From positions 1 through 63,230 of the forward strand of contig SGPM01000148.1 of assembly GCA_004802725.1 (NCBI GenBank): a stretch of 63,230 bases of DNA. The letters run 5' to 3'. Under the pieces are notes generated by a model. That model did no database searches. It was not told where the DNA came from and worked only from the letters and a program-made list of their open reading frames with translations. Each line of letters starts with the position of its first letter. The stretch's first letter is position 1. Origin of the DNA: Antrodiella citrinella. Lineage: Eukaryota > Basidiomycota > Agaricomycetes > Polyporales > Steccherinaceae. The position numbers and the translations under genes were made by a program. Of this stretch, positions 10,401 through 59,854 are shown piece by piece.

Positions 10401-13400
10401 ATGCTCAGTTATCTGGTTCGACTCGCCACCATGACGCAGGACCCTCAAGGGAGGAATCTCGTGATACCTCGCGCACTTGGTCTGCTGAGGTCAATCGTGG
10501 GCCATGCAGGGTGGACCGATGTTACAGTCAAGCTCCATTTCTTCTCGCGCGCATTGCAGCAGGTACGAACACAATGCTTTGTATCACTTGAATCCCTGAC
10601 TGACTCAGTGGTTCAGAGTGATCTCAGTAACGACGGCGCATTGGCGAACGCAGTGAGCGCCGCAAAAGTTCTTCACGCCATAGCGACAGACAAGACCGAT
10701 GAATGGTACACAAGCAATGCTGACATTCTAACGAAGTTAGTCAGGAAAGGCATGACGTCAGAGGATCCCAGCCTATTGGACTCACTTCAGCCCATCACCG
10801 ATCAGTTGTTGCGGCTTCTTCCTCCTCCAAAAGACAGCGAAGACGAATCCGATGATATTGCCGACTTTCACGCTTTCGTAAATGCTGCTATATCCGATGG
10901 GCTCAAGGGTGGCAGTGGCCTGCGCGGTGCTCTCATGATGCTCAAAGCGGTGGTCAAGGTTACGCCTGCGCGGATCGAGGTATTCGCGGTGCCTTTGATA
11001 AAGCTGTTCGTGCAGAAAGCCAAAGACCATGTGCAGTCCACGCCTAACACTGGTGGTTTCGAGGCTATGGTTCGCCAGCTCACCGCTATGCTGGAGATAT
11101 CTCAGCTAGGAGTCGCACATCTTGCTGACCAACGGAAGACTCTTCTACAGTATATCGTCTTTCTTATCGAACGGTCGAAAAGCAGCGCTCTCTGCCAATT
11201 CCTGCTGGATCTGGGACGAGAGTGGGCTTTGAACAAGCATGACACAAGTCCAACGATGAAGGAGAAAGCGTCGATGCTTCAGCGGATGGTCACCTTTGAA
11301 CGAGGCGAGCCGTTGTTCCACAATTACCTGGAGCTTGTGTATGAAATCTACACTGAACCCACCCTCCGTCGCAGCGAGCTCACAGTTCGCTTGGAGCAAC
11401 CCTTCCTCCTGGGATGTGGCGCATCGGACCCGGACCTTCGTGAGAAGTTCATTGATCTCTTGGACATGAGCATCCCTCGCTCTCTTTTCAGTCGTATGAC
11501 ATATATCCTCGGTGTTCAGAATTGGGAAGGATTGGCCGAACGTGGTTGGATCTACCTTGCGGTGCATCTCTTGCTTGGGTCCCTGGACAACGAGTCCCCC
11601 ATTGTGCCCGACAAGAAAGGTACCCTAGAGACTGGGCTCACCCAAACTCCCTTCACCCTTGGTCGTGTGTCTGGTCTCGTACGACCGATGCAGCGATTGC
11701 TGTTTCTGGACCCACAAGCCGCACATGACACTTGGGTATCAATCTTCCCCGCGGCTTGGGCTTGTCTATCCAGGCGGGAACAAATAGACGTTACTCACCA
11801 CCTCATCACTCTTCTCAGTAAAGAGTATCACCTTCACCAGGCCGATAATCAGCCCAACGTGATCAAGTCGCTTCTGGAAGCCGCCAACGCATGCACGCCC
11901 CCGATGACGCTACCTCCTCACCTCGTCAAATATCTCGCCAAGAACTTTGGAGCGTGGCACATAGCTTTGGAACTGCTCTCTGCGTCTCTCGATCACGTCA
12001 GAGACGATGAAGCAGTAGTTCGCGATACGGTGTACGACTCTCTTGCAGAAGTATATGCTGAGCTAGGGGAGGATGACATGTTCTATGGACTATGGCGGAC
12101 GCGTAGTCTCTACATAGAAAGCAACATGGCCTTAGCGTTCGAACAGGCCGGGATGTGGGAACAAGCATCCGGCATGTACGAGACCGCTCAGAACAAGGCA
12201 AGAGCAGGAGTCATCCCATTCTCTGAGGTGGAGTATTGCTTGTGGGAGGACCATTGGATGCTAGCCGCTGAAAAGCTTCAGCATTGGGATGCTCTATACG
12301 AACTTGCCCGAAGCGAGAACAATCACGAGCTCATGCTAGAGAGCGCATGGCGCACCAAAGACTGGGCTGAAAACCGAGAGGCTTTGGAAGAGCAGGTGAA
12401 CCAACTTCCTGAGATCGCGACCCCACGGCGGCGGGTCTTTGAAGCGTTCATGGCTCTCCTGAAGATGCCTGCGGCTATGGACAAGAATACCGAGTTCACG
12501 CGTATCTTGGAGGACGCTATGCAGCTCTCGCTACGAAAATGGGTCACTCTTCCTCAGACTCTGTCTCCTGCTCATGTTCCACTGTTGCAGCATTTCCAAC
12601 AGTTTGTCGAACTGCAGGAAGCCGTGCAAATCTTCGGCTCGTTGTCAACTACCAATGCGCAGAATCTGGAGAAGAAGTCGTCCGACTTGAAGATGGTCTT
12701 GCAGGCATGGAGAGAGCGACTACCAAATCCATCTGACGATATCACCATTTGGAGCGATCTGGTAGCTTGGCGACAGAACGTCTTCGACGCCATAAATAAA
12801 GCTTACATGCCGCTTGTCACCTCGACGCAGAATGGAACAGGAGCGGGCACCACCAATACGTACGGCTACCGAGGGTTCCATGAGACAGCTTGGATCATCA
12901 ATCGCTTTGCCCATGTTGCACGCAAGCATGAGTTGCTGGATGTCTGTTTCAGCTCTCTTAACAAGATCTACACGCTGCCTAACATCGAAATCTCGGAGGC
13001 CTTCTTGAAGCTGAGAGAACAAGCGCGGTGTCACTTCCAGAAGCCTGGCGACTTGCAAGCAGGTCTTGAAGTCATCAACAATACGAACTTGATGTACTTC
13101 TCAAACCCACAGAAAGCCGAGTTTTACACCTTGAAGGGGATGTTCTACGCCAGATTCGGTCGCAACGATGACGCCAACCAGGCCTTCGGTTCTGCTGTTC
13201 AGCTTGATATGCAACAGGCGAAGGCTTGGGCAGCTTGGGGCAAGTACAATGACAAGCTCTTCAAGGAACTCCCGAACGATATGACCCATGCTGCAGCCGC
13301 AGTCAGCTGTTATCTCCAGGCGGCAGGATTGTACAAGAGTAGCAAGAGTCGTCCTCTTCTCACCCGAGTTTTATGGCTTCTCAGCGTGGACGATGGCTCC

Positions 13401-15921
13401 TTCGCGATCTCGAGAGCGTTCGATACATACAAGGGGGATGCTGCATTCTGGTATTGGATCACCCTCATTCCGCAACTTTGCTTGTCGATATCGCAGCGAG
13501 AAGTGAAACAGGCACGCTACATTCTACTCAATCTCGCAAAGCTGTACCCCCAGGTATGTTTGCTGCATAATGTCGATTACTGATACTGAATATTCTTCCG
13601 CAGGCTCTGTTCTTCCATCTTCGGACGACGAAGGAGGACATGATGATTCTCAAGAGACAGGCTGCGAACATAGCTGCTCAGCAGGCCGCAAAAGCCAATC
13701 AGGGGATGACTTCTGACTCGATCAAGCGCGATCCAGACACAGCCATGCAAGACACGAGCAACTCAGAGGACGCCAACACCTCAGGTCAGAAACCCGCAAG
13801 TGCATCGGTGGGGTCGTCTGCAGAAGGCGTACAACCAATTCGCCAATCTTGGGATTATGTAGAAGAAGTCGTGCAGATCCTCAAGACCGCGTTCCCTCTT
13901 CTGATCATGAGCATGGAGACAATCGTGGAGCAGATCACGTCCCGTCTGAAGCCCCAAGTCGATGAAGATATATATCGCTTGATGTGCATGCTGCTGCAAG
14001 ATGCGCTCCAGGTTTGTCCAACAAAAACATGACATTTTCGCGCCACGATGATGATTCTTTTGTTAGACATATAATGCTCGGTCCACTGTACCCGACGACG
14101 ACGGCTCCACGCCTCAAACCACTCTTACCACTCTGGTTCGTTTGGCATCAAATTTGTCAGGCCAGCCTCGCGTACGTGCATTGCTCTTCCTCGGGTTTTC
14201 AATGCTGAGCGGTTGTATAGAAGGACTACGAGGAAGATTTTATCCACAATCGACCACAACAACTTTCGCAGTACATTCAAATCCTGCAGCGGTGGCGTGA
14301 CAAATACGAGAAGCTCATTGATCAAAGACCACGTTTGTCACCTCTTGACGTTCTGAGTCACTACCTCACCGACTTCCAATACTCGAAGTTTGATGAGATC
14401 GAGATTCCTGGCCAATATACCGAGGTACTGCACATCTTATGTTACTGCGGCCAGACACTGAATACTCCATTCAGGACAAGGACAGCAACCAGAATTTCAT
14501 TAGAATCGGGAAGTTTGAATCCAAATTTGAGAACTGCAGGACTCATGGGTATAGTTGGCGACGTCTAACCATTCATGGAAGCGATGGCTCGACGACATCG
14601 TTTGCTGTTCAACACCCATCTGGTCGTCATTGTCGCAGAGAAGAGCGAACAATGCAGTTGTTCCGGACTTTGAACGGGTGAGTGTATGATCCGCTGTATC
14701 AGCCGAGATGATTTACTCAAGCGACGCACGGTATAGCGCACTGACCCGCAAGAAAGAGAGTCGCAAGAGGAATCTCACATTCCATATACCGCCTGCCATT
14801 CCTTGCACGCCCAATCTTCGTTTGCTCCAGAATGACTCGTCATACGTGAACTTCGGTGACATCTTCGATCAGCATTGCGAAGAAACCGGAATTGCAAGGG
14901 AAGATCCTACCCTCGTGATTTCTGAAAAGACTAAGGTGGCTTTGCGCAATTTCAAGCAGACGATCGGAAGGGCGGTACGTATGCTGCATTATCCTTGATG
15001 TTACATGTCACCAATGAACAGCATACAGCCAAATAAGTCTGAGTATGTCAATCTGAGGAAGGAGTTGTTCGACGAGGTGCAGGCCAAGATCGCACCTCCC
15101 AATATTCTGACACGCGTAAGTCTCATCTCACGGTTCAACTCGTAAATGTCTAAAGGCTTTATATAGTACATGGTCAGGACGATGAAGGGACCCACCGAGC
15201 TGTGGCGCATGCGCAAACAAGTTGCCTTGCAGCTGGCTGCGTGTAGCTTCATGACGTATATCATATGCCTGTCCAGTCGCAATCCGTCGCGCTTCCATTT
15301 GTCGCGTACCACTGGCCAGATAGCTATGAGCGAGCTGCTTCCGGGCCTTTCGAATCAGGCTGCTGTCTTTGCCGCAAACGACTACGTACCATTCCGGTTC
15401 ACACCCAACATGCAGCACTTCTTGGGTCCTATTATGACGGAGGGTCTTCTTACTGCGGGCATTGTCGCGATTGCGCGGTCATTGACTGAACCGGAGGTAA
15501 GAACATCGTCATCGTATAGTGTATCACCCTCGACTCACCACGTATCTATCTGCCTTCGTAGTATGAGCTTGAGCAGCAGCTGTGTCTGTTTGCCAGGGAC
15601 GAGTATATGACGTGGCTGCATGGACGTGGCAAAGCGTGGACCTTTGACGTTTCCTTCCGAAAGAATGTTGCCACAATCATCGAAGGTGTGGTGAAAAAGG
15701 CGGAGACACTAGCATGTAAAGTAGAACGCGAGCAGGTACGCCTCCCCTTTCTCTTCTCGTGGCTCGAACAGAATGCTGACTACAACTTAAAGGCAATTGC
15801 GGCCGGAATGAACAACCCGAACCAGACTCCGGTGCACCAGACGGTGACGGCGTTAGTCAACAATGCGTGTAATCCTTTGAATCTCGCAAGGATGGGAGAG
15901 ATATTCCAAGCATGGTTCTGA
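4462..15921 (+). CDS. tra1: TRA1/TRRAP: PIKK-family pseudokinase scaffold of SAGA and NuA4
   Basis: This giant gene has 17 predicted exons and encodes roughly 3,530 residues, normal for Tra1. Tra1 is the activator-binding scaffold shared by the SAGA and NuA4 histone acetyltransferases. The N-terminal exon (4462-4537) begins [16 protein letters not shown]. Long HEAT/TPR repeats follow, including a single exon of about 5 kb (8567-13554). A FAT-like region and a PI3K-like domain come next ([42 protein letters not shown]). A short FATC tail ends [16 protein letters not shown] at 15921. The catalytic HxD and DFG motifs of active PIKKs are absent: the corresponding stretch reads [17 protein letters not shown], as in other Tra1 proteins. 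The last introns lie near 14012, 14172, 14427, 14679, 14975, 15116, 15496 and 15736. A further in-frame 54-nt candidate intron lies at 10563-10616. Confidence 0.95.
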
Positions 15922-16073: not shown

Positions 16074-18485
16074 TCAACCACGATGGAACCCTTCGGTCTG
16101 CCTAAAGGTGTTAATGTGCACTTCGCTTTCCAACATCATCTAATCTTGTATGATCAGCGAACCATAATCTTTCACAAGGGAACGAGCGCACCTCTTCAGC
16201 CATGTTGTAAATCTCAGAGCCCGGTCGGTTGTACATCATGGCATTGGCGAACATCAAGTACACATCCCTCTGGAACTCCAGCGAATTCGAGATGACGCCG
16301 TCCTTCACCCTTGCTTTGATCGTCTTGAGGTCCATTGGCCGTTTGACGATATCATGATAATCCGGAGCTTCTGTCTTCTTGATCGGATTGTGGAAGATAT
16401 TGCCGTAGCGGTGTTGTGAAATGGTGCTGTGTAGCATTCCAATGACATTTTGAAAACGTTTGGAGACGGCCGGGGTCTCGATCGGTACTTGGCTTTTACG
16501 CCGTGACCTAGTGTTGGGACCTGCGTGTGTACGAGATAAAGGATGGGAGGCGACGCTTGAGCTTGATGGCGTACCGGGATCGTCTTCTGCCATGGGTTCG
16601 GATTCTTCTCGTGGTCGTTTTCGTTCACGCTGTCCATCAGATCCTGCGTCGGAAAGCTTGCGTTTGCCTGGTAAAGTGGTAAGATCGTTCAAAGCTCAAA
16701 CACCCACCAATAGCAGCGACCACTTACCCTCTGATCGACTTTCTGGAAGCTTCGCGGCTTCCTCTTCCTCTGCCTGCTCTGGCTCTGCTTCAGCCTCCAC
16801 TTCTACTTCCACTTCCACCGTCTCTGTTACCTCCTCTGATGGTGGTGGCACCAACGAATCATCCACCGTCTCGAGCTCTACACTCAGCTCAGGTTCAGAC
16901 TTGCTATCCTCGGGTGCCGCATCCTCAACCTCGATGTGTACGGTTTCATCTTCGGCGACCGGTTCAGGTTCTACCTCAATCGTCGGTTCAGGGTGTTCGA
17001 CGACATCTACCTCTATTTCTTCTTCAATAGCTTCGTCAACGACCTCGGCAACTTCAGAGGGTTCCATGGTGACATCTTCGGTGTCAGGTTCGAGATTCTC
17101 GTCGTCAGTGGTTTGCGGTGGCGGCGTGACAGGTATAGGCTCTTCCGTTTCCTCTGTCTCGGCTGTCATAGGAGGTTCTGCTACTGCTTCTTCGATCGGC
17201 TCATCGACAGGTGCAGGCGAGGGTTCTGCGGGTACCGAAGAGGGAATCTCAGTGTCCTCCGGAGGAGTGTGTATGATTTCCTCTTCTTCATCAACATCCG
17301 GTACCACCGCACCTTCCACAGCGGCCTCGTCCGTTTCGACTTCCATTGGAGCCTGTTGCTCAGATATTAGCGAGAACGTAAAGAGGACAGTGTGCGCCTC
17401 ACAATTTCCTCTGGTTCCTCAATCGGGCTGGACTCATAATCGAGGAGCTTCGACTGCGGTTTAGAATCAGTCTCTTCGGTAACTACTTCGACCGCTACTT
17501 CAATCTGGGAGGAGACGTGAGAGGGTGTCAGGTGGAAGAATATAAGTCAATCACCTCTTCTTCCGGTTTCTGCGCCTCCTCGGCTGGAGGAGTCTCCTCC
17601 ACTACCTCATCGGGTTCTTCGGGGTGCACATACGCTGGCTCCTGGAGGACAAATCTGTGAGAATGCAATGCGTCTTGCCGGAGTATCTTACCTCGGTTGG
17701 AGGTTCCGCCGCAACCAGCTGCGCCTCGACTGCTTCCTCGTGCGCCGCTTCATGTTCTTCCCCGACAGTTTCCTGGTGTGCCTCTTCATGTGCATCCGCA
17801 GGTGGTTCTTCAGGCAGCGGTTTGAGTCCAAGATCATGCATAATGCGGTCGTCCCATTTCCCGGCACGAATATCGTCAAGTTCAGAAACGAGTGTCCTTC
17901 AGACCCACACATAAGTTTCAGCTGAACATAATGAGTATGCTGAAGAACATGACATACTTGAATTTTTCCTCTTCAGCTGCAATGGAAGTCTTCAACTCAA
18001 TAATCCGCGCGCTATAGTGGCCTGTGGCGAGTATTTTATGTCCTCCTGCTACCGACGCGTTCAGTATAGGGATGTGGTATGGCCGCTCGATGGCGCAACT
18101 CACAATGTCGCTTTTCGTCACCGTTCATGCTACGGGATGCCTTCCGTCAGTCGGTGCCACACTGAGAGAAGGTTGACCTTACAGCTGAAGTCCGGACATC
18201 TGGATCAGAGCGTTGTAGATGGAGAGACATGACTAGAGGACATCATTAGTACCGGTTTGGAGTTTAGCGAACAAAGGGTAGAAGAGACGTGCTGACTTGC
18301 GCCGTATAGAAATTTCTGGGACGGTCACGGTCTAGCAAGGGATGTGTTGACAGTGTCGTTGCGATTTGCGGCCATGCATCTGGGGTGGAGCCATATTCAT
18401 AGACGGCCTGCGAGAACAAGAGACGTTCAAGATTGGAAAGGTCTTCGACATTGAAATGAATAATCTTTTGTGAAGACCTAGACAT
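16074..18485 (-). CDS. bdc1: BRD8/Bdc1-type bromodomain protein, probable NuA4 subunit
   Basis: Ten predicted exons. The N terminus (MSRSSQKIIHFNVEDLSNLE, then PDAWPQIATTLSTHPLLDRDR) resembles the SANT-like start of BRD8. A Glu-rich helical region (AAEEEKFK, then LDDIRAGKWDDRIM) and a very acidic, repetitive middle follow. A nuclear-localisation-like stretch (GKRKLSDAGSDGQRERKRPR) precedes a C-terminal bromodomain. Bromodomain landmarks are NIFHNPIKK, YHDIVKRPMDLKTIK, FQRDVYLMFANAMMYN (the acetyl-lysine-binding Asn is MYN) and IYNMAEE. The order matches human BRD8 and fission yeast Bdc1, both NuA4/TIP60 subunits. The last exon, after an intron at about 16188-16139, ends in HRG plus a stop at 16074. 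The gene is convergent with TRA1, another NuA4 subunit, with only about 150 bases between the stops. Confidence 0.85.
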
Positions 18486-23600: not shown

Positions 23601-26600
23601 ATGCAGCATTCTCAAGCTCGCGCGAAACGACAGCATGGTATTCTGTCTGATGATGAGGTTGGTACCGTCTTGCTTGCAGTCTCACAGGCTGTCGACCTAT
23701 CTGTTGCCCTTCATGACCCTTGACTCACATTTCCCACTTTTAGGATAACTATAGGGCTTCACCTTCCAAATCTTCTTACAACATGCGCTATGAGGGCTCT
23801 TCCCATGACCGGTATCGAGATGTGGATAAACGGAGGCTTTCTGGAGACCGTTATGATGACTTTTCGCCGCCTAAGGATAGGTATAGGCGGGGCAGAGACG
23901 ACGTTGATCACCGTGCAGATGCTGATGCATGGACACCACAATTCGAAGCTCGTATGCCTATAGGCAATAATGCTCGAGCAGAGGTCTATGGAGATGGGCT
24001 GGGGCCCACTGGGAAACTGGGATGGACTCCACCTGCTAGGAATGATGACAGGGACACTGACTTCAGCAGGTGGTCACCCAAAGACAACAAGGTGCGCCTC
24101 GGTGGCGACAAGAATCGCAATCGGTGGGATATGGGAGAGAAGCAGAAAGAGTGGAGACATGACGGGAAGGATAATAGTGTTCGGGAATTCCAGCGGGACA
24201 ACGGTTGGGAATCAAGACGACGTGCCACTGTGGACGACGTTCCTCGACGCCCATTCGACATTCCTCAGGCCAGCACCAGTAACATCAATGGCCGGGGTGA
24301 GTCTTCTGACCGTTCATGGGAACCTGCTCCGGGTTGGCGACAGAACAACATGGGTACCAACATGAACAACAACAACAACAACAACAACAACGGCAATACT
24401 ACTAACAACAATCGTCCCGGGGAGCAGCAGCAAGGTCAGCGCAAGAACCGCCACAAAAACAAGAAGAAGAATCGACAAAAACAGAACGACCATAACCATA
24501 ACGGCAGCAACGCAACGGGGAGTAACGCTGTTAACGTGAAGAACCAGCGGGAACAGGACCGTGGTTGGCGCCAGGATGATACCCACCTAAACAAGTGAGT
24601 CCAGTACCTTGAATCCTTGGCCATCGCTCATGTGTACTTTAGCTGGCAACGCCGCGATGTTCCGTTCGGTAGGGACATTGGCACAGATCCCGTTATTGAT
24701 AGCCAGATGCAGATGAGAGGTCGAGTGCCGAATCAAAACCAACGATTCCGTTCCCCACGATCCAGGTCTCGCACTCCGGAGTCTTACTATTCTCGTCGAT
24801 CCTCTCCTGGACATTCTCCATCTCCGGAATCGCCCAGGCGACGCCACAGACCTGCCAGTCCGTACGGTCCGAGTCCTTCAGACCGGTATGAGGCGCGAGG
24901 TCGACGCCGGCACGATCGATATTCCCGTTCCCCTTCTTATTCCTCAAGGCGATCCCCGAGTCCGAGACGCAGTCCTGTGCGTGGTGGTCGTAGCCCAGAT
25001 GATCGTGGCCGGCCTCGCAGAAGGAGTTTGTCATCTGCTAGCAGCATGAGCAGAAGCAAGAGTCGCAGCCGTTCTCCGAGTCCCCATGAACGTGCTACTC
25101 GACCTGTCCACAGACTTCCTGTGGCGACATCCCTGAATGACGTGCGAGTCGGCACCCCCAAGACTGCTAATGCGCTTCCACCGCGTCCTCATGGACGCAA
25201 TGGGAAAGATACCAACGGCAAACGGAACGTGAGTTTTATGCTAATTTGCATCTTGAGGCGCAGTTTCTAACTTCTGAGCCATCGCGGTTTCGCAGAAGCG
25301 TAAGCAGAAGGACAATCAATTCGAGGCAGCTGAAATGCCACCACCTGCACTTCCGGCCTCTTCATCGACAGCAAGCGCTGTTCTTCCCGCCTCTTCACCG
25401 CGCGGGATATCCCCTGAAACCGCAAGGAGTGGCGTGCGCAAGAATGCTGGGTTCAAACCAATTGGGCAGCAGAGCTCGGCTGTCAAGCGGTTCTTCCCTG
25501 GGGACGAAGACGATGACGACGATCGGATCAAGACGTCCACATCTATCACACAAAGTCTCAGTCCTGCTACCTCTTCAAAGTCTGTTTTCGTGCTGTCAAC
25601 TCAGGCGGTGCATCCTCCCACATTCGAGGAAGACGCGGCCGAGCGACGTCGTGCCGAACCACGATCACCGCCTCATATAAATCGCGTCGACGCATTATCT
25701 CTGCCTTACTCTCGCAGTCCTGATCAGCGACCTCACCCACTCGCTCGAGATGAGTTCCGGCCTCCTGCGTGCGATGACGACAGATCCAGGGCGCAGCCTG
25801 CGATGCCTTTGCATTATGATCCGTCAGTTGCCACTCCCTCTAACACAAGACCATCTTCGCCGCGAGGTTCCCGGGACGAATTATATGAGATCGTCAGTCA
25901 AGTTGGTGAGGGCACCTTTGGCAAGGTGTACAAAGCACGCAACACAAGCAACAATCAGTTTGTCGCGCTCAAGCGTATTCGTATGGAGGCAGAACGAGAT
26001 GGTTTCCCTGTTACGGCCATGCGAGAAATCAAGCTTCTCCAGTCCTTGCGACAAGATAATGTTGTGCGTCTGTATGAGATGATGGTTGCAGGCAGTGCGT
26101 TTTACGCTAGTTTTCTGTGTGCCGATCCCACTGATTATTTTGACATCCAGCTAATGTCTATATGGTGTTTGAGTATATGGATCACGATCTCACCGGCATC
26201 TTATCCCAAAACCAGTTCTCGTTCACTGATGCTCATCTCAAGTCGCTGTGTCGTCAGATGCTAGCCGGACTGGCGTATCTTCATCACAAAGGTGTAATCC
26301 ATCGGGATATCAAAGGGTCCAATATCCTCATCAACAATCGTGGAGAATTAAAGTTGGGTGACTTCGGGTTGGCTCGATTCTACCAAAAGCGCCGTAGGAG
26401 TGATTATACGAACCGTGTTATCACTCTTTGGTACCGTCCTCCTGAGCTGTTGTTTGGTACAACAGTGTATGGTCCCGAAGTCGATATGTGGAGTGCCGGG
26501 TATGTTGTATGCGACCAGTCAAATCCTCCCAGACGCTGATGTATGTAATGCAGATGTATCATGCTCGAACTTTTCACGAAGAAGCCGGTGTTTCAAGGCA

Positions 26601-27199: not shown

Positions 27200-28771
27200 T
27201 TATGCTTGGGACGAAATGAGCCCTCTATGGGCGAGATGCTGCACGAGCGACTCGACCTGCGAAACAATTTGAGCTAAAGAACAGACATGGAAAGACAGAG
27301 CTTGAAACTCACATTTGCGGCTGTCAAACGAATCTGCAAATCCCATCGTTTCGTGAAGGGTGCACCCGTATCTTCGCTAGTCTGTTCTACATCACCCAAG
27401 CCTCCCGCTTTGCCTTGTGCGGCATCCTCGTCTCGGTCTTGTTCAAAGATGATCAGCTTCTCCACCTGGTCTATCTGGCCTTTGAGACGCCCCTGCTCAA
27501 TCATTTTTCTCGCCATCGTCTCCGCTGCTCCGGGAGTGAGGTCAAGTAGAGCGCCAAGACCACGGAAGGTGATGTTGTTGTATATCTTGGAGCTCGCAAG
27601 CACGTTGTGTTCCATGACAGCACGATCTAGAACTGTCGAGGGACCTGTGCGCTTGCTAGCATTGTCATCGGCTACGTCGTCGTCGTCGTCTGTGGCGGCG
27701 GATGCCAGACGATCGTTTGATGATAGGGATATCTGAGCAAGTTGGTGGGCTCTGAGGGTCCCTTCGAACTCTTTCACCTCTGCAGGACGTAGAATTCTGT
27801 CAAGGAACATCTTGGAAAGAATGTTGAATGTTGGGAGCTCTGCTGTGCGTTCATCGCGGCATAGTGAGGCAAGAACGCGAGAACGATTGGGACCTGCAGG
27901 TGCTAAGACTGCACAGGTCACCGCAGCGGACCTAAAGTATCGAAGGTGATTAGATCTGGAGTTCGGCTTTTGGATCGTAGATCACACGTACAAGGCCTGT
28001 CGCCTCTCCTCTTCGTCAATATCCGCAACATAGCTCAGTTCATGATACCGACTAGCAGCTTCCAAGAATTTCCTAGCGTAATCACTGATCCTGGCTTGAC
28101 ATAGTTTGAACTGCAGAAGGGTCTCCTTCTCAGTTCCCGAGTGGGCCAATAATGCAGCACGGTTGTAATATGTTTCGGCTTGTACGGAATCCTCGTCTTC
28201 TAGCAGCAAGCGGACAATGCGAACGTACACCCGCAGCTTGTCTTCATTTGGTCTGGAGACATAAGCGACATATTAGTATCGGTGCAAGCGCAACAAATGG
28301 TATGTATCGCACCTATTCCCAGCATCTAGAGATATGCCCATGAGTACCCGCGCTGCTTGACTCCATTCCTCTTCGTTCTCCAGTAGCTGTGCGAGTTGAA
28401 AGCGCAAAGAGTTGACCTGGAACGCGCGATATTAGGATGAAAAGCAAGTATACTACATCTGTAAAACTCACCTGCTCCTCGTAGCTTACAAGCTTGGGCT
28501 GGAGGATCTGCAGTGTATCCTCAACGATCGCCTTGGTCACATCAACACTCTTGACGGCACCTTCCTCGATGTTCTTTACGAGCTCTGACAAGACTTGTCG
28601 GCCGACCACCAAGCCGACGCTGTCTTGTACGACTGTATCCACCAGGAGGTGAATGTCCTGCGCGATGTCGGCCTGATTTGGGCTCGCTAGGATCTCACTG
28701 AGGGCGGTGATGAAGGCGGGTGCCCTATCTTTCTGGGCAAGAGCTGCGATTTGAGCGAATCTGCCTTCCAT
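27200..28771 (-). CDS. csn4: COP9 signalosome subunit 4
   Basis: The spliced protein starts MEGRFAQIAALAQKDRAPAF. It continues through helical repeats (VNSLRFQLAQLLENEEEW, LRVYVRIVRLLLEDEDSVQA, ETYYNRAALL) typical of CSN4/Rpn5-like PCI proteins. The PCI/winged-helix core is ILSKMFLDRILRPAEVKEFE, MEHNVLASSKIYNNITFRGL, GALLDLTPGAAETMARKMI and LKGQIDQVEKLIIFEQ. A last short exon, after an intron whose donor is AAT|GTGAGT, gives VESLVQHLAHRGLISSQA and a stop at 27200. CSN4 is a structural subunit of the COP9 signalosome, which removes NEDD8 from cullins. An Asp-rich run (DDDDDVADDN) interrupts the middle. The stop is about 115 bases from that of the convergent ctk1. Confidence 0.92.
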
Positions 28772-29328: not shown

Positions 29329-32300
29329 ATGTCTCAGTACACGACACCCATCGGCAAGCCCTCGCTATTCGAGCCCCTCCGTCCTGCCAATATCCGTCAT
29401 CCTCTCACTCCTCCCGAAACAGACTTCGACTACGTCCAGTCGCATCCTCAGACTCTGAGATCTGCCCCAGCTGGTCTCGTAAATGGGATTGAGTCGGAGC
29501 CTGCCATGTTGCACTTAGCTGGGCCTACTGGCGAGTCATCCAGCTCTCCTTATGGCCACCGCAGGGGTCCATCCGTCTCCTACATTCATTCTGGAATACG
29601 AGAGTCGCGCGAGAGGGTTATTCAACGGAGTGTCAAATGGCTTGTTATGGTCTCTCCCCCTGCCTCATTCACGCAAGAACACGGGCAGCTTGGCAGCACG
29701 CTCTCCTCGGGGCCATCTCACCGACTATCGCATGGGATTTTGCTGCCGTTGTACCCTACCGTCAGTATCAGTACCTTCGTATATCATATGGCCTCTGACG
29801 CGCTTCTGTTTAGATGGCAGGTCAATTGGGCGTCATTGCTCGCGAATTCAGCTTGCCAAGCATTGCAGGGCTTTGTCTGTACCTAAACACTGTCTCAGGC
29901 AGTGTCGCGGTCACTCCCCGGATCTCTGAGGAGTCGTGGTCTTTGTTATGGGCACACTTCCTTGACATTCGTAATCCAGTCGCACCGCAGACCCAGCTTC
30001 CGGTGTGCGGTCGTATCGAATTCGACATTGATTTTGCCAAGGCTCGGTGGTACGATGCATGGCTCTCTGTGCCTCGTCGAGATGTCCAGGATGTTCCAGT
30101 CTCCGTTATTCCCTCACGTGATCAGACATTGTCACACTGGAGAGATGACAGCAGGACTACAGTTCTCGAGGACAATGACGACCCGGAGACCGCATCGCTC
30201 TTGCAGCAAAATATGACTCGAGCAATCGGACGAAATGGTCCAAAGAAGTTATCCCTCGTTGACAGGTTTGATCTCTCATCTGTGAAATCGGGATCTAAAC
30301 TGGTTCCCCGACATCGGTCACCCACTCCTACGGAAGATGCGTCTCACCGTCAACAATCGTTGTCCCCCATCGCGCAGGAGGAGGAACCCATGACTGCAAG
30401 GAGGAACCTGGATCAGTTAATCACGAACTGGCGTGCCAGTGCATCTCAGGCGGCTAGCCCTCTGGCTGCCACAGGACAAACAAGCCTTGATCCTGCTAAT
30501 ATGCCGAACACGTCTACTCTAGTCGATACACCAGCAGAGGGCACTATGTCACAGCTCAACCTTGACGACTTCTCGTGGTCAGTTTCATCTGTAGGACCTC
30601 CGGAATACGAAGATGATATAGACTCACTGCATGAGTCGGATTACAACCCTTCAGTTCACCTGGTGGGGCGTTTGCAGGGCTCCGTGCTCTTGACGCCATC
30701 GACGCACACATCGTTCGGTCCTCCAGATTACGACATGTTCTCTCCCATATCGTATGTGTCTCGCTTGCCATCACCTGACATTGCGGCACGAATGCTGGAG
30801 GATTGTCCGCCAACCCCATCGACTTGTACTTCTTGGGGCGGTGCGGAATTAGCTCCCAACTCGCCCTATGCAGATAGCTTCCGAGCACCATCTGTTGACC
30901 TTGCGCACAGAGGCGATTATAGTAGGCCTGTCACACCGACCACTGCGACTACATGGGGAGCCATGGATTCTTACCCGCCAAGTCCAAGAGGGGGTGCATA
31001 TTCTGACGTCGACGCAGTGCGTACTCCGGACGCAGCAGAACGTAGCTTCGTCGAAGTGCAAACGGAGACACATCATGACCATTGGGGAATGGTCTGGCCT
31101 TACTACCACGTAAGACGGGTTGAACTGCCAGGTTGGGAAAAGATATTTGTTTGTGATAAGTTGTTGCTCGTTGGCTCATGAAAGCTCTTAGAACGCTGGG
31201 AACATGTATGGCCTTACACCCAAGTCACAGACACCCACGAAGATGAAGAAGCAGGTGCGAAGTTTTGTTTATTCTATTAGCATGCTGCTTACTGATTGGA
31301 CGCAGAGCACCGGGGACACGCCTCGCCTTACATCAGCACCTCCAATGTTCACGATGAAGGTGTAAACGGCACTTTGTACGGGGTGTACCCCTATCTCAGT
31401 ATATGTGAATCGTTGTGATATTTCCATCTCATCATATCCGTACTCATTCTGCTTCATAGATCCTGCTGTGTACCCTTCATTTGAGTTGTACCCAGCGCCT
31501 GCTACGGGTATGAAGGAAACGCACCAAGATAACAGCACACTGATTGGCACTGGATATCCATCTTTCAACCTCTGTGCGTGGGTTCTCATATTGCACTATT
31601 TGTTTCATATATTAACTGCAATTTTTCACATAGATGCACCGGTGTATCCTCACATGAACATATATCCCGCCACGACAGTTGATGCGCAAGAGACTTCTGC
31701 ATCAGCCGTCGAGCCTACGTCGCCCACTTCTCAAGCTGTGGTGTGTAAGATCCCCTCTGTATACCCTGCTCTTGACATCTGTACGAAACCATTTCGCTTG
31801 TCTGTGCATACGTACTGAATAGCTGAACAGACCCCGCGGTGTATCCATTCAACTTGGTTGATATCTATCCTCATGCTACAAACGCGCCCGTACACTTGTC
31901 ACCTGTGCGACTTGACCACTCTCTGAAGTACAAGTATCCTGACATTATTATCTGTCAGTGCTCTGCGCTTTAATCAGACTAAATGTGCTGACGTATGCAA
32001 CTCACAGATGCCCCTGTCTATCCTTATAACCTAGAGAACATATATTCCTTGAAGGTTGCACCTTTTCAGCATCAGGAACTTCGCAGAAGCCCATTTGTGG
32101 ATGTCACGCTCAAGACACAGTACCCAATATTTGATCTTTGTAAGTCCCTTGAATTGGTCGCAAAGTAGAGCTTGCGCTTGACGCGAGCATTAGATCCTTC
32201 GACTTACCCACATAACCTGCTGGCTATCTACCACTCATTGCCAATCACTAATTCTGCAAAGACTGCGTCGTCGCAGGAGACTTGCATCGTTACTCATCTC

Positions 32301-34196
32301 CCTGCTCACTACCCGGCATTTAACTTATGTACGTACCAGATGGCACCCATTCAACACAATGTTTTCTAATCTTGTGTTTTGTAGATATGTCAACATATCC
32401 TCACAACTTATCAGACATCTATCCTAGCAAGAGTATAGAGGAAGCTATTGTCGACGACACTGTTGTTTCAGCGTCGTACATTTCCAAGGAGATTCGTCAG
32501 TCTTCATGGGGCACCGCTCAGTTGCTTTCGGTCTATCCGCTATTCAATCTATGTACGCAGCAAGCAAATCCTACTCGTTTTATTTGTACTGATTCAACCA
32601 ATTCTCTGATAGACCCTGCTGTGTATCCTGCGAATCTGCAGGAGCTTTACCCAACCACAGTTCGCGAGTCTTTCGCGCGACAAGATACTAGTCATAAGAT
32701 CGGGTTCTCGGTCGTCTTGTCAGCTGCATATCCCGCGTTCGACTTATGTAAGTCCTTGACACTAACGGTTCATACGATCTGCTGACCCTTGACCGTTTTG
32801 GCAGATGCACCAGTCTACCCGCACAATCTTGAGGTCATCTATCCGGTGAAGACGAGCTCTGCGCACAAGCGTCCACGTCCCAAGCGATCAATGAGTGCAA
32901 ACCTTGTCCTCGTATCCCAACCACGCAATCCGAGGGGTCATGGCAAGCACACGTCATTGGTTACCTTGCACGTTGCTTCGTCGCCTTCAGTGCGCTCGCC
33001 GATTCCCCCGGTCCCACCCCTACCGCAGAATGTTCACCAGCTGAGGCCAATCTCTCCTTGGACTGGACTACCACTAGCGGCGAGTCCTATATGGAAGTCT
33101 TCGTCTGTCGAGATGGCTTATAGGTATCCAGTGATCTGCCTATGTGAGTCAATGCACACCATCGCGTTTCATGCTTTTGCTCATTCGGCCATCAAGATCC
33201 TGCTGTATATCCAGAATTTTCCTTGTATCCGCCCTTGAGCCAACACAGTATGTCCGTGTCATCGGTGGCTGAGGAGCTGTTGCCTGCAGTGGTCAGGGAT
33301 CAGTCTCTTTCCATACATATGGAGAACAGATATCCGTTCCTGCAGATCTGTGAGGTTGATTTGCGTCAGCGTTAATCGAAGTACTCACCTCAGTAACAGA
33401 TCATAACGTGTATCCTTACATCGATATGTATCCCGGATTCAGTGGCGAGATGTCGGTTGTTGTTCCACTACCGACACCTTCTTACGCCGAGGCACCTTCT
33501 CGTATCCCCCGCAAGGTCAGGAAACACACACATGCGGACCTTTACATTCAGGTATTCGGCAAGACGTCTCCATCTCCCAGGCAGTTGCCTACACCTCCTG
33601 GAGGCGTCATAAACCCTGCAGCTATATCACCACGACAAATTCCCCCTCCACGGATTTTGTCGCGTAGACGATCCGGTACAGTGAACAGGAGATCGTCCTC
33701 GGTCTCTTCAGAAGGGAGTTCACCTGCACGCAGACAGTTACCTACACCACCGGGAGGCGCATTGTCACCCATGGCCCTCTCGCCTAACTCAGCACGTATT
33801 TATACTCCACGGTCATACGGTATGCCCGGCAGCCCGCCAATGACTAGGATCCCTTCACCTTCGCGACAGGCCAGTCCTCTGTCCTCTCCGCTCCCGTCCC
33901 TGTCTGAGCTTTCCGTTGTTTCGACAACAAGCCCATCCCGTACTTCTCCTTCTCGGCACATCCCTCCTCACCTGAATCTCCAAGCGTCCGTGGCATATCG
34001 TCCACCTGTCACGGTGTCTGCGTCGCCGCCGATAGTATCAGACAGTGAAAGCACTGCCCTTGGATTGATAAGAACCTCGAGTACGTCGAGTTTGTCTTCG
34101 AGGCCCTTACCTCGTGCACGCAGCGGGAGCATAGCGATGGGTTATTCTAGACCTCCCTTACCAGCTGTTCCAGATGCTGGTGTTCCATTCTCATAA
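29329..34196 (+). CDS. Uncharacterised protein of Tyr-Pro (YP) modules, one module per exon
   Basis: Fourteen exons add to 4140 nt, exactly 1379 codons plus stop. Exon 1 (29329-29760) and exon 2 (29814-31109) hold a folded-looking region (LSHGILLPLYPTMAGQLGV, EFSLPSIAGLCLYLN, RISEESWSLLWAHFLDI, GRIEFDIDFAKARWYDAW) and a long Ser/Pro-rich part. Exons 3 (31185-31254) and 4 (31306-31404) are short. Then come module exons 31460-31573, 31634-31780, 31831-31953, 32008-32139, 32194-32328, 32385-32552, 32613-32747, 32805-33143, 33197-33349 and terminal 33400-34196. Each module starts Y-[PA]-x-[VT]-Y-P-x-x-[LI]-x-x-[IL]-Y-P, runs through a variable spacer, and ends Y-P-x-[FL]-[DN]-[LI]. The tail is Pro/Ser/Arg-rich with two RQLPTPPGG copies. 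There is no signal peptide or membrane helix. I know no function. The periodic Tyr-Pro motifs could be phosphorylation or binding sites, which is inference. Confidence 0.8.
31460..33438 (+). repeat. Ten-copy exon-module array (Tyr-Pro modules)
   Basis: Nine internal exons and the start of a tenth carry the same module. All introns here are phase 1 and cut the first Tyr codon of the module as T|AT or T|AC. Internal exon lengths are 114, 147, 123, 132, 135, 168, 135, 339 and 153, all divisible by three; introns are 50-60 nt. The conserved ends contrast with spacers of quite different sequence and length, so the array is old rather than a recent tandem copy. Confidence 0.85.
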
Positions 34197-37176: not shown

Positions 37177-40100
37177 TCATTTCCTCACTTCCTGATCCCC
37201 ATCTTCGCCTCGAGATCGCCAGACATCCGACATACTGTTCCGGGAGACAGCGTAGGGTCTACGAGAATCCATGGAAAGATCTTCGGAGGAGGACGAACTG
37301 TCCGAGCTCCAGGGAGGTTCGACCCGAGGATCTCGCTGCTGCGACCAACTTCCCCTGCCCATGAAGCTGTTCCTGCGCATAGAAGCGAATGGGGTGAATG
37401 TTTGCGAAGCCGTACGCAGCCTGCGTAAAAGGCCGCCCGCCGTCGTAGGGCTCCCAGGGGGTTGTGTTGGAGGCGGTCCTTCCGGCTCAGTGTCGACTGG
37501 TGGGGGAGGATCAGGCGTGGCACGTCCATAGTCAGACGCTACGACGGGCTCGCTGTTATCATCGACATTGAGATGGCTATTAGCCCAACGTCTGCGCAGC
37601 GCAGCAGCTCGTGTAGGATCGGCTGCAGCGTTTGTTGTCCGAGAAGACACGGACGCAGAGGGAGATGTTCTGTGCCGGGTGTGCCTGTGCGACCTTCCGG
37701 TGTTGTTGACAAATGCGTCTTCAGCATCGCTATCCATCGGCAGAGGTACATCATCAGAGACAGGAGGAGCGGATGTCATCAACGCGGAAGGAACGGGAAG
37801 TCGGGTACCGGTGACAGGTGCGGGGATAGCATCAGATTCAGCCTTCTGAGCCGGGGTACGGGGTATCGTGGCTTTCCGAACAGCCTGTCTGCCTAGTAAA
37901 ATCTGTTTCTCCAGGCGGAAGCGGTTCTCAATTATGTGCAGCTGTCAAAAGACGGCATCAGTCTCTCGAACTACCCAGAAGCAAATGATATGATGTACCT
38001 TCGGCCATGTAACAAGCTCGCCAACACTCATTTTCCTTCCCAGCTCTGCTTGCGTAGGATCACTCAGTATCTTCAAGAAATCCTATACAAAAAATGAGAT
38101 CTAGACCAGCCTCATTTACTCTCGTGACATACCGTGATACGCGCTCGTGGCCAAATTCTAAGACGTACGGTCAATAAATGTGACATTATGCTTATAGAAT
38201 GAACTCACGTTACAGTTCCATCGAACCTCTGCAGGAAAACACTTGACCAGTCCTGGCCCAAGACTTGGGGTAGAAGATCAAGATCACGAATGAGCTGAGA
38301 GAAGGTCAGATCGACAACTACAGACGACAAAAGACACGCAATACCTTGAAATTCTTCGTCAACTCAAGCTTCAACCATTGCTCTGCAGCAGAAAGCAGGA
38401 AGTTCCCTCGCCAGCCTGCAAAAGAAATCAATGCCTGTTGTATGCGAGATGAATAAGAGGCAGACCTTTGCCCTTGCGATGAGCTACTGGCTTGCCAGCA
38501 GAACCTCTCGGCGCGAAAAAGAATAAATGAACGTGAGGGTTGACTTGTGAGACTACAGTGTGTGTTACTATGAATCAAGATAGTTGTCAGCGAGTGGTGT
38601 CAGCGTCACGCAGATATAGATGGCAGACCGTTGAAATACAGATTGAGAGATTGTACAGGAATATCGACTCTGATAAAAGAGCCACGGTGAGCTTAAATCC
38701 TCAAACGACTTGCAAGGCGTGCGCTCACCTTAACGATCCATCTTTCCATTTGCTACCCCAACTCCATGGAACGATTGACCCGTCCTTCAGTTTGGACATC
38801 AATACGACGGGATTCAAGATGCCGGGAACGGCAGCGGAGGCCAAAACGGCACTCCAGATAACTGTATCCGGAGCAGTCATGTAGTTGAGGAGTTTCGTAG
38901 GCCTGTATAGAATGAGACGTGTATTCTGGTATATGTAAGGCAACCAGCACTTACGAATGACGATCGGCGGGGATAACAGATATGTTAAGGATACGTCCAG
39001 TTCGCAAGTAAGCTTCCTTGAAAGTCAGGGATCCGCGCGTGTAGTAATTGATCTGCAAATACATGTCAGTCATCATATTGCTTTACATATTTGCGTTCAC
39101 ATACTTTGCGAGCCCAGTCAATGCTGTCGAATCGAGCACCGGTCTTCCAAAATCGCTTTCCCCAGACCTTAAAAGGTTCCTCAAATGCAGTGATACGGGT
39201 TGCAAGCTCAGGGCAAAGCAGCTCGCGAAGTTCGGCGTCCGTATAGCAGCAAATCAAGGCAGCGATCAGACCACCAGCGGAAGTTCCAGATATCACTCGG
39301 GGTAACATGCCAGCATCCATGAAAGCCTTGACGACACCAAAGTGATCTATTAGAAGCGTTAGCAAGTCGCCTCAAAAAGGGGAGCGAGACTGACAGTATC
39401 CAAATGCAGCGCCTCCGGACAAACACAGTGCTGTAGTACCCAAATTTGTGTTGATGCTCTTGAAGAACCTCTTCTTCTCCTCGTTAGAAAGGTCAGGAGA
39501 CCTGCGAACAAATTCCAAGGCTTTCTCCTGTTCAGAGACGTATGCTGAAAGATACGTGGGATGAGGACAGCAGTTAGGTGGTTTATTGTACGATACATAC
39601 CTTCTATGAGGTCCTTGGTGCCATAAAATGTCTGACGAAGTAGATGAATGGTCAAGAGCAAATATGAGTAGTAACGTTGTACATACTTCGCTATAGAGTC
39701 TGGAAGGGGCAAAGGTGAGATTGTGAGGGCGAATCAGTTAGTCATGAATGACATACCTTGAAGATTCAATCCCGGCAAAGTTGGTTCGGACGCAAGTCTC
39801 AAGAACACCCATTAGTCCACGGGCATCATTCTTTTCCCGATGATTGCGCAGAGTTCGTAGCACCTTACAAAGCCATATGTAAGTTCCAAGCCCAACACAA
39901 ACTGCGCAAGTCCTACCTTCTTCACGAGCTTCCAATCATAGTATGGATCCTCATCCCCGATTTTCCACTCGTTGAATCCTAGGTAATCATCGAGAACTAG
40001 GGCCGCATCCTTCCATTCCTGGGGTCGAGGTGAGCATTCCTGAAGGGTGACATGATGCTATGAGTGTACCTGATATGTCCTGGCGTTCCGTAAACGTTTC

Positions 40101-42559: not shown

Positions 42560-45444
42560 TCAAGTGGCTTTGCTAAACCATTTCTTGAGGCTTAGCTGCC
42601 CCATCTTCTCCACCACCTCCTTGACATCAATCCGATTTATCGAGCACCTGTAACGCATGAAACCCTTCGACGTCCCTTGCGAAGGAGCAGATACGACGAC
42701 CACAGCTCCAAGAGTAGCCAACCGCTCAAATTCCTGTACATAATCAGAATCAGACAAATGTTAAAGCTATACATGGGAAATGAATGAATGCGAGACTTAC
42801 GGCCATCAGAACCTCGCGACTGCATCGCACCATACCGATTCCACCTCCCTGGACCTGCACAGGAGCTGAATGGGATGTCCTTACTTGGTCACAGAAGGTT
42901 TCGTATAGCATCTCAAAAGTGAAGGTGTCGTGACCAGAAGTCCGCGCATGCATGGCCGCGATGAGAAGACACATTGATGGATACGTCACCGCTGGGTGCA
43001 TACAATCAGTCGTGCGCGCGCAGCGACGGTGATCAAACTATGAGCTTACCATGGAGGAACGTTATGGTGGGACACCGCTGGTTCTGGAGCGTAGCCACCA
43101 ATGATTTCGAAGAACGCGAAGTTGGCAACGGTGACGTCGGTGTGAGCTCTAGGATAAGAGGAATCTGAAATGGTGTCACTTTGCGTTATCTTGGCGATGA
43201 TGGAACACATACCAGAATTCGACTCAGCATGCGCAGATCTCGAGTCAGGGAGAAGGTATCCTGCAAAGCCTCTTGGACATCTGTATCATCCAAAAGCTTA
43301 TCCACTGCGGTGTCCCACTGAAGTGTCCACTCCTCAGAGGCCTCGACGTCAATGGGAGCGCATAGCGCACGTCGAGCTGTGCTTATCCAAACCGACAGCT
43401 CCCCGGGGCATGCGGTACGGAATATTCGACCTGAGAAGCGACTCTTCACTCGCTTCTCGAGTAAGTTGATGGTATCCACCCTGCTAGTTACTCCAATGAC
43501 AGCAAGGCCTTTCCCATTGGCACCGACCCTAGCATGCTGAACCGTATCGAAGAGACAATATAGCAGAGACTGGCGCGCATGCAGGGCGAAGAGGTCGAAG
43601 CCATCGAGTACAATGATTGTAGGTCGAGACAAGGTGGGTATCATTGAGATCAACGCCAATAGATGAGCAGGCGGCGGAAGTGCCAAAACCGACGGTTCTG
43701 CAGACTTGTCCAGGAAGGGGTTGTCGGCATCTTGGTTGGATTCGTCGTCAGGATCGTCAAGAGACATGAGTGACGTCCCAGACTGTTGCGCCAGCTGCCA
43801 CGCAATTTCGCGCATAGCGAGGCGGTCGTTGGTCTGCGCGTGACCTGAAAGGCGTATTACATTCGGCACTTCCGGAAGGGATGCTATAACATCTTCTACC
43901 AGCTAGAATACTGTTTAGCCTTCCACTGAGTCAAATGAAGGACAGTCCAATGTACTCACACGCGATTTCCCACTTGCACGGGGTCCAGTAATGAGACAAC
44001 TATTGCCTTCTCCGCGCTGAACAGTTCCCAAAAGGAGATTGGTGAGTTGCTTATGTGCAACTGAATTGGGATGAACATCCATGTCCTCTAGGTCCATCAT
44101 CTGTGGTAGTCTGTGTAGCGCACTGAGTGTAGCACGCTTCTGCGCCTCGAGATACAGTTCCACATCCTCCGCTGATGAACGGGAAGCCTCCTTAGCAGGA
44201 GAGGCGATAGCTTTGCCTTTGCCCTTGCCATACGTACGTCCGGGTGTACGTTTCGTAGGTGACAGGACCTCCACTGGTAGCTCTTCAGGAAATGTTTCCA
44301 GCTCATCGTCCTCTTCTACGATCGGTGTACTACGCTTCCGGGAGGGTTGAGGTGTCGCTGAGAATCTAGCTCTGGTGGGGGTCGAGGGTACGGGAAGTGA
44401 TTGGATCTTGGGAGATGGGGGCACCACAGACAGTGTGCGGGCACGTGAAGTCAACCCCTTGCTCTGACTCCTCAAACGTGAGGGAGTGGGTGGAGGTTCA
44501 ACACAGTCCAGGAACATTCGAGGCGTGCCCGCTGCAGAGCCATTAGGTCTGGGTAGAACCTTCGGTCGGGCACCAACACTTCTCGGAGGAGTGACGGGAG
44601 GGGAACTCGGGGGTGATCTCAAGAGCAACTCATCTGGTTCAGAGTCAGTTGATTGTGCTGCCTCCACCTCCTGCATGGGCTCTTCTGCTACCGCGACTTC
44701 TGCCAGTACCTCCACCGTGGCTGATTCTGCTTCCGCAGCCTCCAGTTCCTCCGCCGTTTCATTGAATAACTCCATCGCCGCCTCTTCTTCCTCTATCAAG
44801 TCTAATGCCTTATCATCTGGTTCTGCCAGTGCTTCGTCCAAAACTTTGGACCGTGATCGAGAGGCTGGTTTGCGCTTCCCTCCTCGCGCTCTCGGCGCTG
44901 GTCGGCCCCGAGCGGGAGGCTTAGACGACTTTGTGAGAGGTTTAGGCAGAATGGGGGCATTGTCAAGCTGGAGTTTAGATGAGCTAGCGACCGGTTCTTC
45001 TACGTCCGACGCAGACGATTCGGACGACACAATCTTCGTAGCTTGCGCCTTCTTCCTAGCCAGACCACCGTATGTAGCGTATTTCCTTACAGCTAGAGAG
45101 GCTGCAGGAACAGTTCCTAATTTCTTCGTAGTTGTTGATGCGCGAAGACGCGTCCTGGGTGGGGAGGGCGAAGAGGGAAAAGGCGGTCTGGCCGCTATAG
45201 CGGCAGGTTTGATTGGCTTTCGTCCACGTCGAGGTGGTGGTGGTAGTTCCTCGTCGTCATCCGAGCTATCAACTGCAACGTTCTCTATAGACGATGATGT
45301 TGGAGCCGTGCGACGACGAGCAAGAGGTCGAGGTGATACGGCCGTAGGTTGTGTCACGACTAGAGGACCTCCGCTTCGTGTTCTTCGTTTGGGAGGAGGT
45401 GAACCGTCCATATTTGCTTTGGAGGCCTTGCGTTTGACGGGCAT
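42560..45444 (-). CDS. orc4: Origin recognition complex subunit 4 with long AT-hook-like N-terminal extension
   Basis: The C-terminal half is an ORC/Cdc6-type AAA+ ATPase: Walker A CLITGPRASGKSR, Walker B PTIIVLDGFDLFALHARQS, sensor-like LAVIGVTSRVDTINLLEKR and DTFSLTRDLRMLSRIL. A winged-helix part follows (IPLILELTPTSP, LQNQRCPTITFLHAVTYPS, TFEMLYETFCDQVRTSHSAP, GGGIGMVRCSREVLM) with stop at 42560. Five exons; introns at about 43950-43903, 43189, 43050 and 42803. The first exon encodes about 450 residues before the ATPase, mostly disordered: MPVKRKASKANMDGSPPPKR, a PPPPRRGRKPIKP motif, KPPARGRPAPRARGGKRKP, acidic Glu/Ala stretches and PGRTYGKGKGKA. The RGRK and RGRP cores resemble AT-hooks. 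Orc4 binds origins in the origin recognition complex; the tail may help bind AT-rich DNA (inference). Confidence 0.92.
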
Positions 45445-51753: not shown

Positions 51754-53920
<2,167 letters not shown>

Positions 53921-58700: not shown

Positions 58701-59739
58701 ACGCAGCTACGAGGGAGTAGCATCAGCATGGGGGTCAAGATCGAATATATTTGCGAATGAACTCACCTCCTCTGCTAAAGTCCGGAAATCGCCATACCTT
58801 CGTGAAACGAAGACGTCAGACATCTTGGAACGACGAGTGCGAACTATAAACTCCTGTATGAAGCGATCAATGTTGTTCAGTAACATAGATAGACTTGATA
58901 TGTACCTCGTGGACCCTCGACCTCATCCGTTTCTTCTCCACTACAGTGCGCACACATACGACGTTCACTTCGAATGTGTTCTTATCTTTGTCCTCCTTCG
59001 CAGCGCGTTTCTTTGCAAGACGTTCCAGCCTATCAAGATCGGACTGAGTTAATCGAACAACTTCCTCCTTCTCGACCAGCTTCGTTCCGCTTGTCATGAG
59101 CATGGTGAAGTTCCGCTCCAGCTTCATTAGGACCTTGACCCGCGCCATCGCTTCCGACTGCTCATCACCCTCGTCCATGACCGAGACTTGTGATAGATTC
59201 CGAGAGAGCAGAGAAGCCAGAAATGGCTGCAGTTTGTCAGGGAAGAAATTCTTGGGTGCCGCGGCGAGAAACGGGAAGGAGAGCACGAACTGGCGGAAGA
59301 CGTAACGGAGGAACGGGAGATCGAGGCGAGGTCCATCCTTGGGAGGAGGAGTAAAGGGTGGACCAAGGTACGAGAAGGTCGAGACATTATTATTGGGAGC
59401 CTCAACCAAAGACTTGAACTCTCTGCGGAACTGCAGCTGTATGAGCTCCTTCTTGAGGTAATGAGCCCGGAGAGGAGTCAATACAGTCGCTTGTTCTCTT
59501 GATGAGTCCGACCCTGCTTGTGGCGGATGGTCAGTTCGATCAGCGAAGGTGGGGGATTCGGAGGAGGGGGGTTCAGAGGGGAGATCTTGTTGGTGAACAG
59601 TTGGGGAGGAGAGAGGTGTGAGAAACGTCTGATCGGAGTGGGCTGAATGGGGCGAGTCCTCCGTGTCGGAAGGAGGGCTGGGGACTAAGGGTATATCTCG
59701 AGTAGGACGGCGAGGCCGTGCGAGGGTTTGGGGTTCCAT
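55771..59739 (-). CDS. PX-domain protein with PXB/DUF3818-type flanks (Ypr097w/Lec1-like)
   Basis: The N-terminal Ser/Pro-rich tail (MEPQTLARPRRPTRDIPLVP) precedes a helical region (LRAHYLKKELIQLQFRREFK, LPFLRYVFRQFVLSFPFL). The PX part follows: TFEVNVVCVRTVVEKKRM, EFIVRTRRSKMSDVFVSRRY, GDFRTLAEE. The RRYGDF motif is the phosphoinositide-binding signature. After it come LTREKNRLTLRSYLHTLLSS, DVNFKSH-like helices and CPISQAPDIPDLRSLASTVF, FFLATPFGGRSLLQ and SSLMQWIELFLTLMREG. The C terminus is Ser/Asp/Glu-rich and basic (RRERSKSRSPARKKKRAEG), with a final exon MRPLLRPHMAQQVQGQPPPP and a stop at 55771. The family in yeast (Lec1/Ypr097w) is implicated in sterol or lipid handling at membranes. 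About ten exons. Confidence 0.85.
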
Positions 59740-59854
59740 GGATGGATATGAGAGTCTGCTCGTCGTTCGATACGATGAGGACGACGAGAGACAGGAACGA
59801 CTACGGAGGGTCAGGAGTTAGAGAGAGGATTCTTGTACGCTGAGGACATTGCCG

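Follow-up and report, generated by a model that had tools for sequence, protein, structure and literature searches.

The analysed window, a stretch of 63,230 nucleotides (contig SGPM01000148.1, positions 1 to 63,230) from the wood-decay polypore Antrodiella citrinella (source assembly of 30 Mb in 602 contigs), carries the gene EUX98_g5237, which is deposited as a hypothetical protein. The gene model was rebuilt from splice signals, the deposited model P0001 and the proteins of two near relatives; it occupies 29329-34196 on the + strand, with 14 exons and a single open frame of 1384 residues. Its main feature is a tandem array of symmetric phase 1-1 exons, a layout that is real, widespread in mushroom-forming fungi and one for which no description was found. 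Ten introns, from 31405-31459 to 33350-33399, are all of the GT..AG type, 50-60 nt long and in phase 1, and all ten cut a tyrosine codon between T and A[TC], just as the sequence-only reading had proposed. All nine exons between these introns have lengths divisible by three (38-113 aa), and the gene model bears out the further claim that the frame is kept when any of the nine is skipped or duplicated. That reading had also counted ten modules, which did not hold: there are nine internal symmetric exons plus a terminal exon, where the start of a motif is followed by the end of the protein. Similarly, the exon-start pattern proposed, Y[PA]x[VT]YP, fits eight of the ten exons (YMSTYP and YHNVYP deviate), and the exon-end pattern YPx[FL][DN][LI] fits six of nine (YPDIII, YPVICL and YPFLQI deviate).

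The run of phase-1 introns is longer than first noted, including also 31132-31191 (codon cut as G, then AA) and 31255-31305 (G, then AG), making 12 of 12, whereby 11 of 11 exons are symmetric phase 1-1 exons with a length divisible by three, among them two upstream of the modules (63 and 99 nt). The sole phase-0 intron of the gene is the first one, 29761-29813. With independent phases, the chance of 10 of 10 introns being in phase 1 would be P 5.9e-6 to 1.7e-5 (phase frequencies assumed to be 0.30 and 1/3); the independence fails because tandem duplication copies the phase.

Exon 1 (29329..29760, start codon at 29329; P0001 and a match of Steccherinum P0002 at 29329-29766 agree with the model) encodes the N-terminus and the start of the folded domain. 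Exon 2 (29814..31131) encodes the remainder of this domain, a long, mostly disordered middle and the first VWPY motif, and the main segment predicted confidently by AlphaFold (29626..30092, residues 100-237) is split by the intron between them. Exon 3 (31192..31254, 63 nt, 21 aa) carries a related VWPY motif, and exon 4 (31306..31404, 99 nt, 33 aa) ends with YPYLSI, followed by the first Tyr-split junction. The module exons in the gene model are then: 1 at 31460..31573 (114 nt, 38 aa), 2 at 31634..31780 (147 nt, 49 aa), 3 at 31831..31953 (123 nt, 41 aa), 4 at 32008..32139 (132 nt, 44 aa), 5 at 32194..32328 (135 nt, 45 aa), 6 at 32385..32552 (168 nt, 56 aa; a candidate fusion product of two modules according to the module lists), 7 at 32613..32747 (135 nt, 45 aa), 8 at 32805..33143 (339 nt, 113 aa) and 9 at 33197..33349 (153 nt, 51 aa). 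Module exon 8 contains a long insert with a proline-rich PPVPPLPxN stretch (33005-33076), present in P0002, P0003 and P0005 too. The terminal exon (33400..34196) contains the last motif and a C-terminal tail, mostly disordered in the AlphaFold prediction, with HTHADLYIQVF (33525-33557), a region conserved across the family alignment as THxxLHxxVF; a search with this exon found a single relative. The motif also comes in a tryptophan form, xWxHVWPY, which occupies a small exon by itself at 31192-31254 and recurs where exon 2 ends; Armillaria-like and Desarmillaria proteins have it in different copy numbers.

In the deposited P0001, the interior of module exon 2 is joined directly to that of module exon 3, module exon 9 is missing and the C-terminus differs; these departures from the rebuilt model are taken as prediction error rather than an isoform. 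An end of exon 2 at 31109 with a start of exon 3 at 31185 was tried and replaced by 31131 and 31192, matching P0001 and Cristinia P0003. The junction, spacer and module-order counts given below were made with a 1235-residue window protein that had no exon 1 and the older exon 2-3 join, which leaves the array unaffected; the motif and spacer identities and the frame-keeping tests also used the older join, with one extra residue beyond the stop, and are likewise unaffected within the array.

Of 7992 candidates scored against the spliced protein, 211 proteins reached E<=0.001, and the family figures rest on the best 120 of these 211. The organism-named entries among the 120 are all mushroom-forming fungi, a class assignment made from general knowledge; as expected for a fungal gene, no relatives were found in bacterial/archaeal or viral contigs. 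The repeat motif is about 18 residues long, YPx[FL][DN][LI]YPAVYPxF[DN][LI]YP, and the consensus of 1109 junction windows, whose Tyr-Pro positions are fixed by the search pattern, is V-x-L-x-x-x-YPx[FL][DN][IL]YPAVYPHF[DN][IL]YP. A motif hidden Markov model trained on 1110 windows from the same 120 relatives recognized 10 junctions in the window protein at a threshold of 5 bits, in comparison with 1 match in 121 shuffled proteins. Conservation is concentrated in the motifs: identity to the Steccherinum and Cristinia proteins is 73-77% in the motifs, 32-38% in the spacers and 67-68% in the N-terminal 240 residues. Among the 110 of 120 proteins with at least 1000 aa, the number of junctions had a median of 11 and ranged from 0 to 23, the zero belonging to P0102; without it, the span in long predicted proteins is 4 to 23. 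P0102 (Phlebia brevispora, 1949 aa) is a deposited model, perhaps a gene-prediction fusion, joining a member of this family with PF17681 and PF04130, which we take to be gamma-tubulin-complex domains. It was kept in the junction counts and omitted from the YPXnL counting described below (109 proteins). Another member, P0100 of Lentinula edodes, is entered in the database under a misleading name, 'salivary gland secretion 1'.

The claim that no described family has this layout was borne out as far as the proteins and texts searched. No Pfam family reached its cut-off in the window protein (residues 1-446 of the first model), in four other members or in the main exon of a paralogue; one family member gave one sub-threshold match. 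A profile search against the PDB gave no match, and six motif strings of the array were found in no paper of the open-access library searched, which lacks most subscription papers. In the same genome, a search with the Steccherinum protein (6 candidates scored) returned only EUX98_g5237 and one paralogue of the N-terminal domain, EUX98_g1026 (C2:41601-42401), with 33% identity to the Steccherinum family member and an E-value of 4e-11. The paralogue is part of another uncharacterised family, also from mushroom-forming fungi, that lacks the Tyr-Pro array. The two families have the N-terminal domain in common, but none of the 120 listed proteins from the paralogue search gave a match to the junction motif. 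The AlphaFold prediction is confident for one N-terminal domain only (main region residues 100-237), and the array is almost entirely below pLDDT 50. For a beta-grasp (ubiquitin-like) reading of the N-terminal part, the predicted fold of the paralogue was too poor to lend support.

Relatives were compared for the same introns through read-through traces in their proteins. If a phase-1 intron at a T-A[TC] split is retained, translation must give Cys (TGT) where the intron begins and Asp (GAT or GAC) where it ends, and the frames in the window agree with this. In the 120 proteins, YPx[FLIV][DNES][LIVP] is followed by Tyr at 1533 of its 1616 occurrences, and Cys accounts for 15 of the other 83, with 0.53 expected from composition. 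Moreover, six complete in-frame read-through stretches were found in five proteins, from Trametes coccinea, Amylocystis lapponica (two), Epithele typhae, Favolaschia claudopus and Guyanagaster necrorhizus, with implied introns of 48-63 nt, and in 8 of 120 proteins the chain ends no more than 75 residues away from a YP...[LIVMP]C. These traces indicate that the Tyr-splitting introns are present in the genes of other species as well; an early origin is therefore probable for the intron that lies within the motif.

The number of modules differs among relatives, as judged from predicted proteins. The window gene has nine modules, and Steccherinum ochraceum and Cristinia sonorae have ten each. The best matches of the nine modules follow the same order in both (rho 1.00), with modules 5 and 6 sharing one partner; in the reverse comparison, the modules out of line number one for Steccherinum and one or two for Cristinia. 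On inspection of the module lists, the beginning of window module 6 resembles module 6 of Cristinia sonorae and its end resembles Cristinia module 7; by score, its best match is Cristinia module 5. Given this mixed start and end, one module has probably been lost from the window gene by a fusing deletion. Junction counts in predicted proteins were 9-11 in nine Trametes, 11 in three Sanghuangporus, 14-17 in four Suillus, 11-18 in ten Mycena and 7-10 in four Lentinula, with 6 in Armillaria, 6 in Desarmillaria and 9 in Guyanagaster. Of the 121 proteins, 102 were testable for repeated spacers, and 31 of these, several Mycena included, had a pair at least 60% identical; the origin of such near-duplicates, judged by their likeness, is recent local duplication. 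Together, the counts and the near-duplicate spacers show copy number changing by whole modules. The rapid module turnover proposed earlier thus fits some lineages, while in the window gene the order is largely kept relative to its two nearest relatives.

These features are, on balance, explained best by a disordered multivalent docking scaffold of mushroom-forming fungi, made by duplicating an intron-bearing motif unit, with all copies normally spliced in; we hold this to be somewhat probable. The protein combines a small folded N-terminal domain, a long region of predicted disorder and a tandem array of about ten motifs of some 18 residues, separated by variable spacers. Each motif copy spans an exon junction, probably owing to a single phase-1 intron inside the motif of the ancestral repeat unit. 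The array would have been built by in-frame duplication or loss of this unit, probably via unequal recombination, and such duplication of a one-intron unit would give the uniform phase and the exon lengths divisible by three. The motifs most likely all dock the same partner, each as a short peptide site, in which case copy number would set avidity or clustering.

Several points weigh against this explanation. The exon maps of relatives are deduced from read-through traces in proteins, and in these Trp (20) outnumbers Cys (15) among the non-Tyr residues on the donor side. On the acceptor side the trace is weak, with Asp found 12 times against 5.15 expected and Leu (47) as the commonest non-Tyr residue. 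Counting of C...D letter pairs alone showed no enrichment, many other pairs being commoner, and for this reason the Cys at the junction was relied on. The copy counts rest on predicted gene models, some of which are wrong, and when four more distant proteins were compared, a common module order did not emerge (rho 0.40, 0.43, 0.02 and 0.18). The disorder was predicted with an alignment of 56 sequences, and the motif could fold on binding or self-associate.

The sequence-only reading had seen in the skippable exons a system that looked built for combinatorial isoforms; regulated exon skipping would then yield many protein variants. All nine module exons can indeed be left out in frame, but tandem duplication alone gives the uniform phase and lengths without any isoform role, and the layout is therefore no evidence for isoforms or a splicing design. 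Transcript-like sequences point the same way. Among 14 listed proteins without an NCBI source, nine (frames of 2.9-4.8 kb on contigs of 3.9-7.9 kb) are inferred to derive from transcripts, and the other five look genomic. The nine have 5-12 intact junctions and no Cys trace; they are cluster representatives only, among which minor isoforms could hide. Among the transcript-like proteins, P0075 is without a WPY unit of 17 residues that P0079 and P0093 have, as exon skipping would produce, but it also differs from P0079 by many substitutions and may come from another species, so that the comparison does not separate isoforms from differences between species. Introns of 50-60 nt, furthermore, are of a length consistent with intron-definition splicing. 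Skipping of coding exons is seen in Schizophyllum commune, for which a junction analysis listed 1,527 such events beside 7,851 alternative sites, but exon skipping made up 1% of coding-region events in the main analysis of the same study, with 43-44% for intron retention (PMC5034255). Combinatorial isoforms are thus unsupported, and we regard them as very improbable.

The main rival on function is that the Tyr-Pro-Phe array acts as a row of aromatic stickers, driving self-association or condensates with no single folded partner. The conserved aromatic motifs, variable spacers and predicted disorder correspond to a sticker-and-spacer layout, and the wide variation in motif copy number would fit it too. 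On the other hand, an ordered motif of about 18 residues with preferred D/N and F/L positions seems more specific than stickers would need, and we consider this rival unlikely, if still worth attention.

A special case of the docking scaffold would have the motifs serve as YPXnL-type ligands for the V domain of Bro1/Rim20-family proteins of the endosomal sorting complexes required for transport (ESCRT). The window protein has about 20 YPXnL-like sites, and YPX(1-3)L/I sequences lie in a segment predicted by AlphaFold to be exposed. In the 109 proteins, YPx3[LI] occurred 1976 times versus 113 in shuffles, and position +5 was I or L in 84% of the 1109 junction windows, which had been picked beforehand for L, I, V, M, P or F there; such an enrichment, however, follows from any repeated motif holding Y, P and L. 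PF13949 (ALIX_LYPXL_bnd) was above the cut-off at two loci of the same genome (contigs C46 and C600), but V-domain proteins occur in fungi generally, whatever the motif does. The companion late motifs were not clearly enriched, with 24 P[ST]AP versus 48 in shuffles and 177 PPxY versus 137. YPXL/I is named, in a reference title and in review passages, as the motif recognized by Aspergillus PalA and AIP1/ALIX. The HIV-1 p6, EIAV p9 and PalA/PacC YPXnL peptides that bind ALIX/PalA resemble the array in an exposed Tyr-Pro with L/I 1-3 residues further on. The fungal array differs in its many copies, F/L at +3 and the YPAVYP core, and the likeness is one of sequence. Altogether, we find this identification of the partner doubtful. 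The still bolder proposal of a lineage-specific scaffold recruiting many Bro1/Rim20 (ESCRT) molecules, whose site number would evolve via the intron-split exon unit with the array as a valency dial, seems a rather remote prospect.

Other rows of in-frame exons offer partial parallels. Titin PEVK and tropoelastin also have rows of short in-frame exons coding disordered repeats; exon choice making isoforms is a feature of those proteins, and we know of no sequence relation to the array. For metazoan genomes, one study cites a marked rise in domain-flanking exons of phase 1-1 (PMC6547436), and the same-phase flanking introns and module lengths divisible by three of that exon shuffling are found here as well. 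In contrast, the present case is a fungal gene with a short, predicted-disordered unit whose motif is centred on the junction, and not a folded domain.

The surroundings of the gene look like ordinary cellular genes, 8 of 10 scanned neighbouring open reading frames having a Pfam match: Tra1 (8418-13580), a bromodomain (16111-16695), kinases (25278-26264 and 52409-52882), PCI (27274-27981), ORC4 (43186-43902) and PX-associated domains (55872-56933 and 58867-59817). No Pfam match was found in the other two, 1376-2797 and 37177-37944.

Overall, EUX98_g5237 belongs to a large conserved family of mushroom-forming fungi for which no description was found, and the correspondence between exon and motif in it is clear. 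The array misleads gene predictors, as this deposited model and several others read through or skip parts of it. The family also provides a natural series of valency variants, suited to asking how the number of motifs tunes a scaffold.

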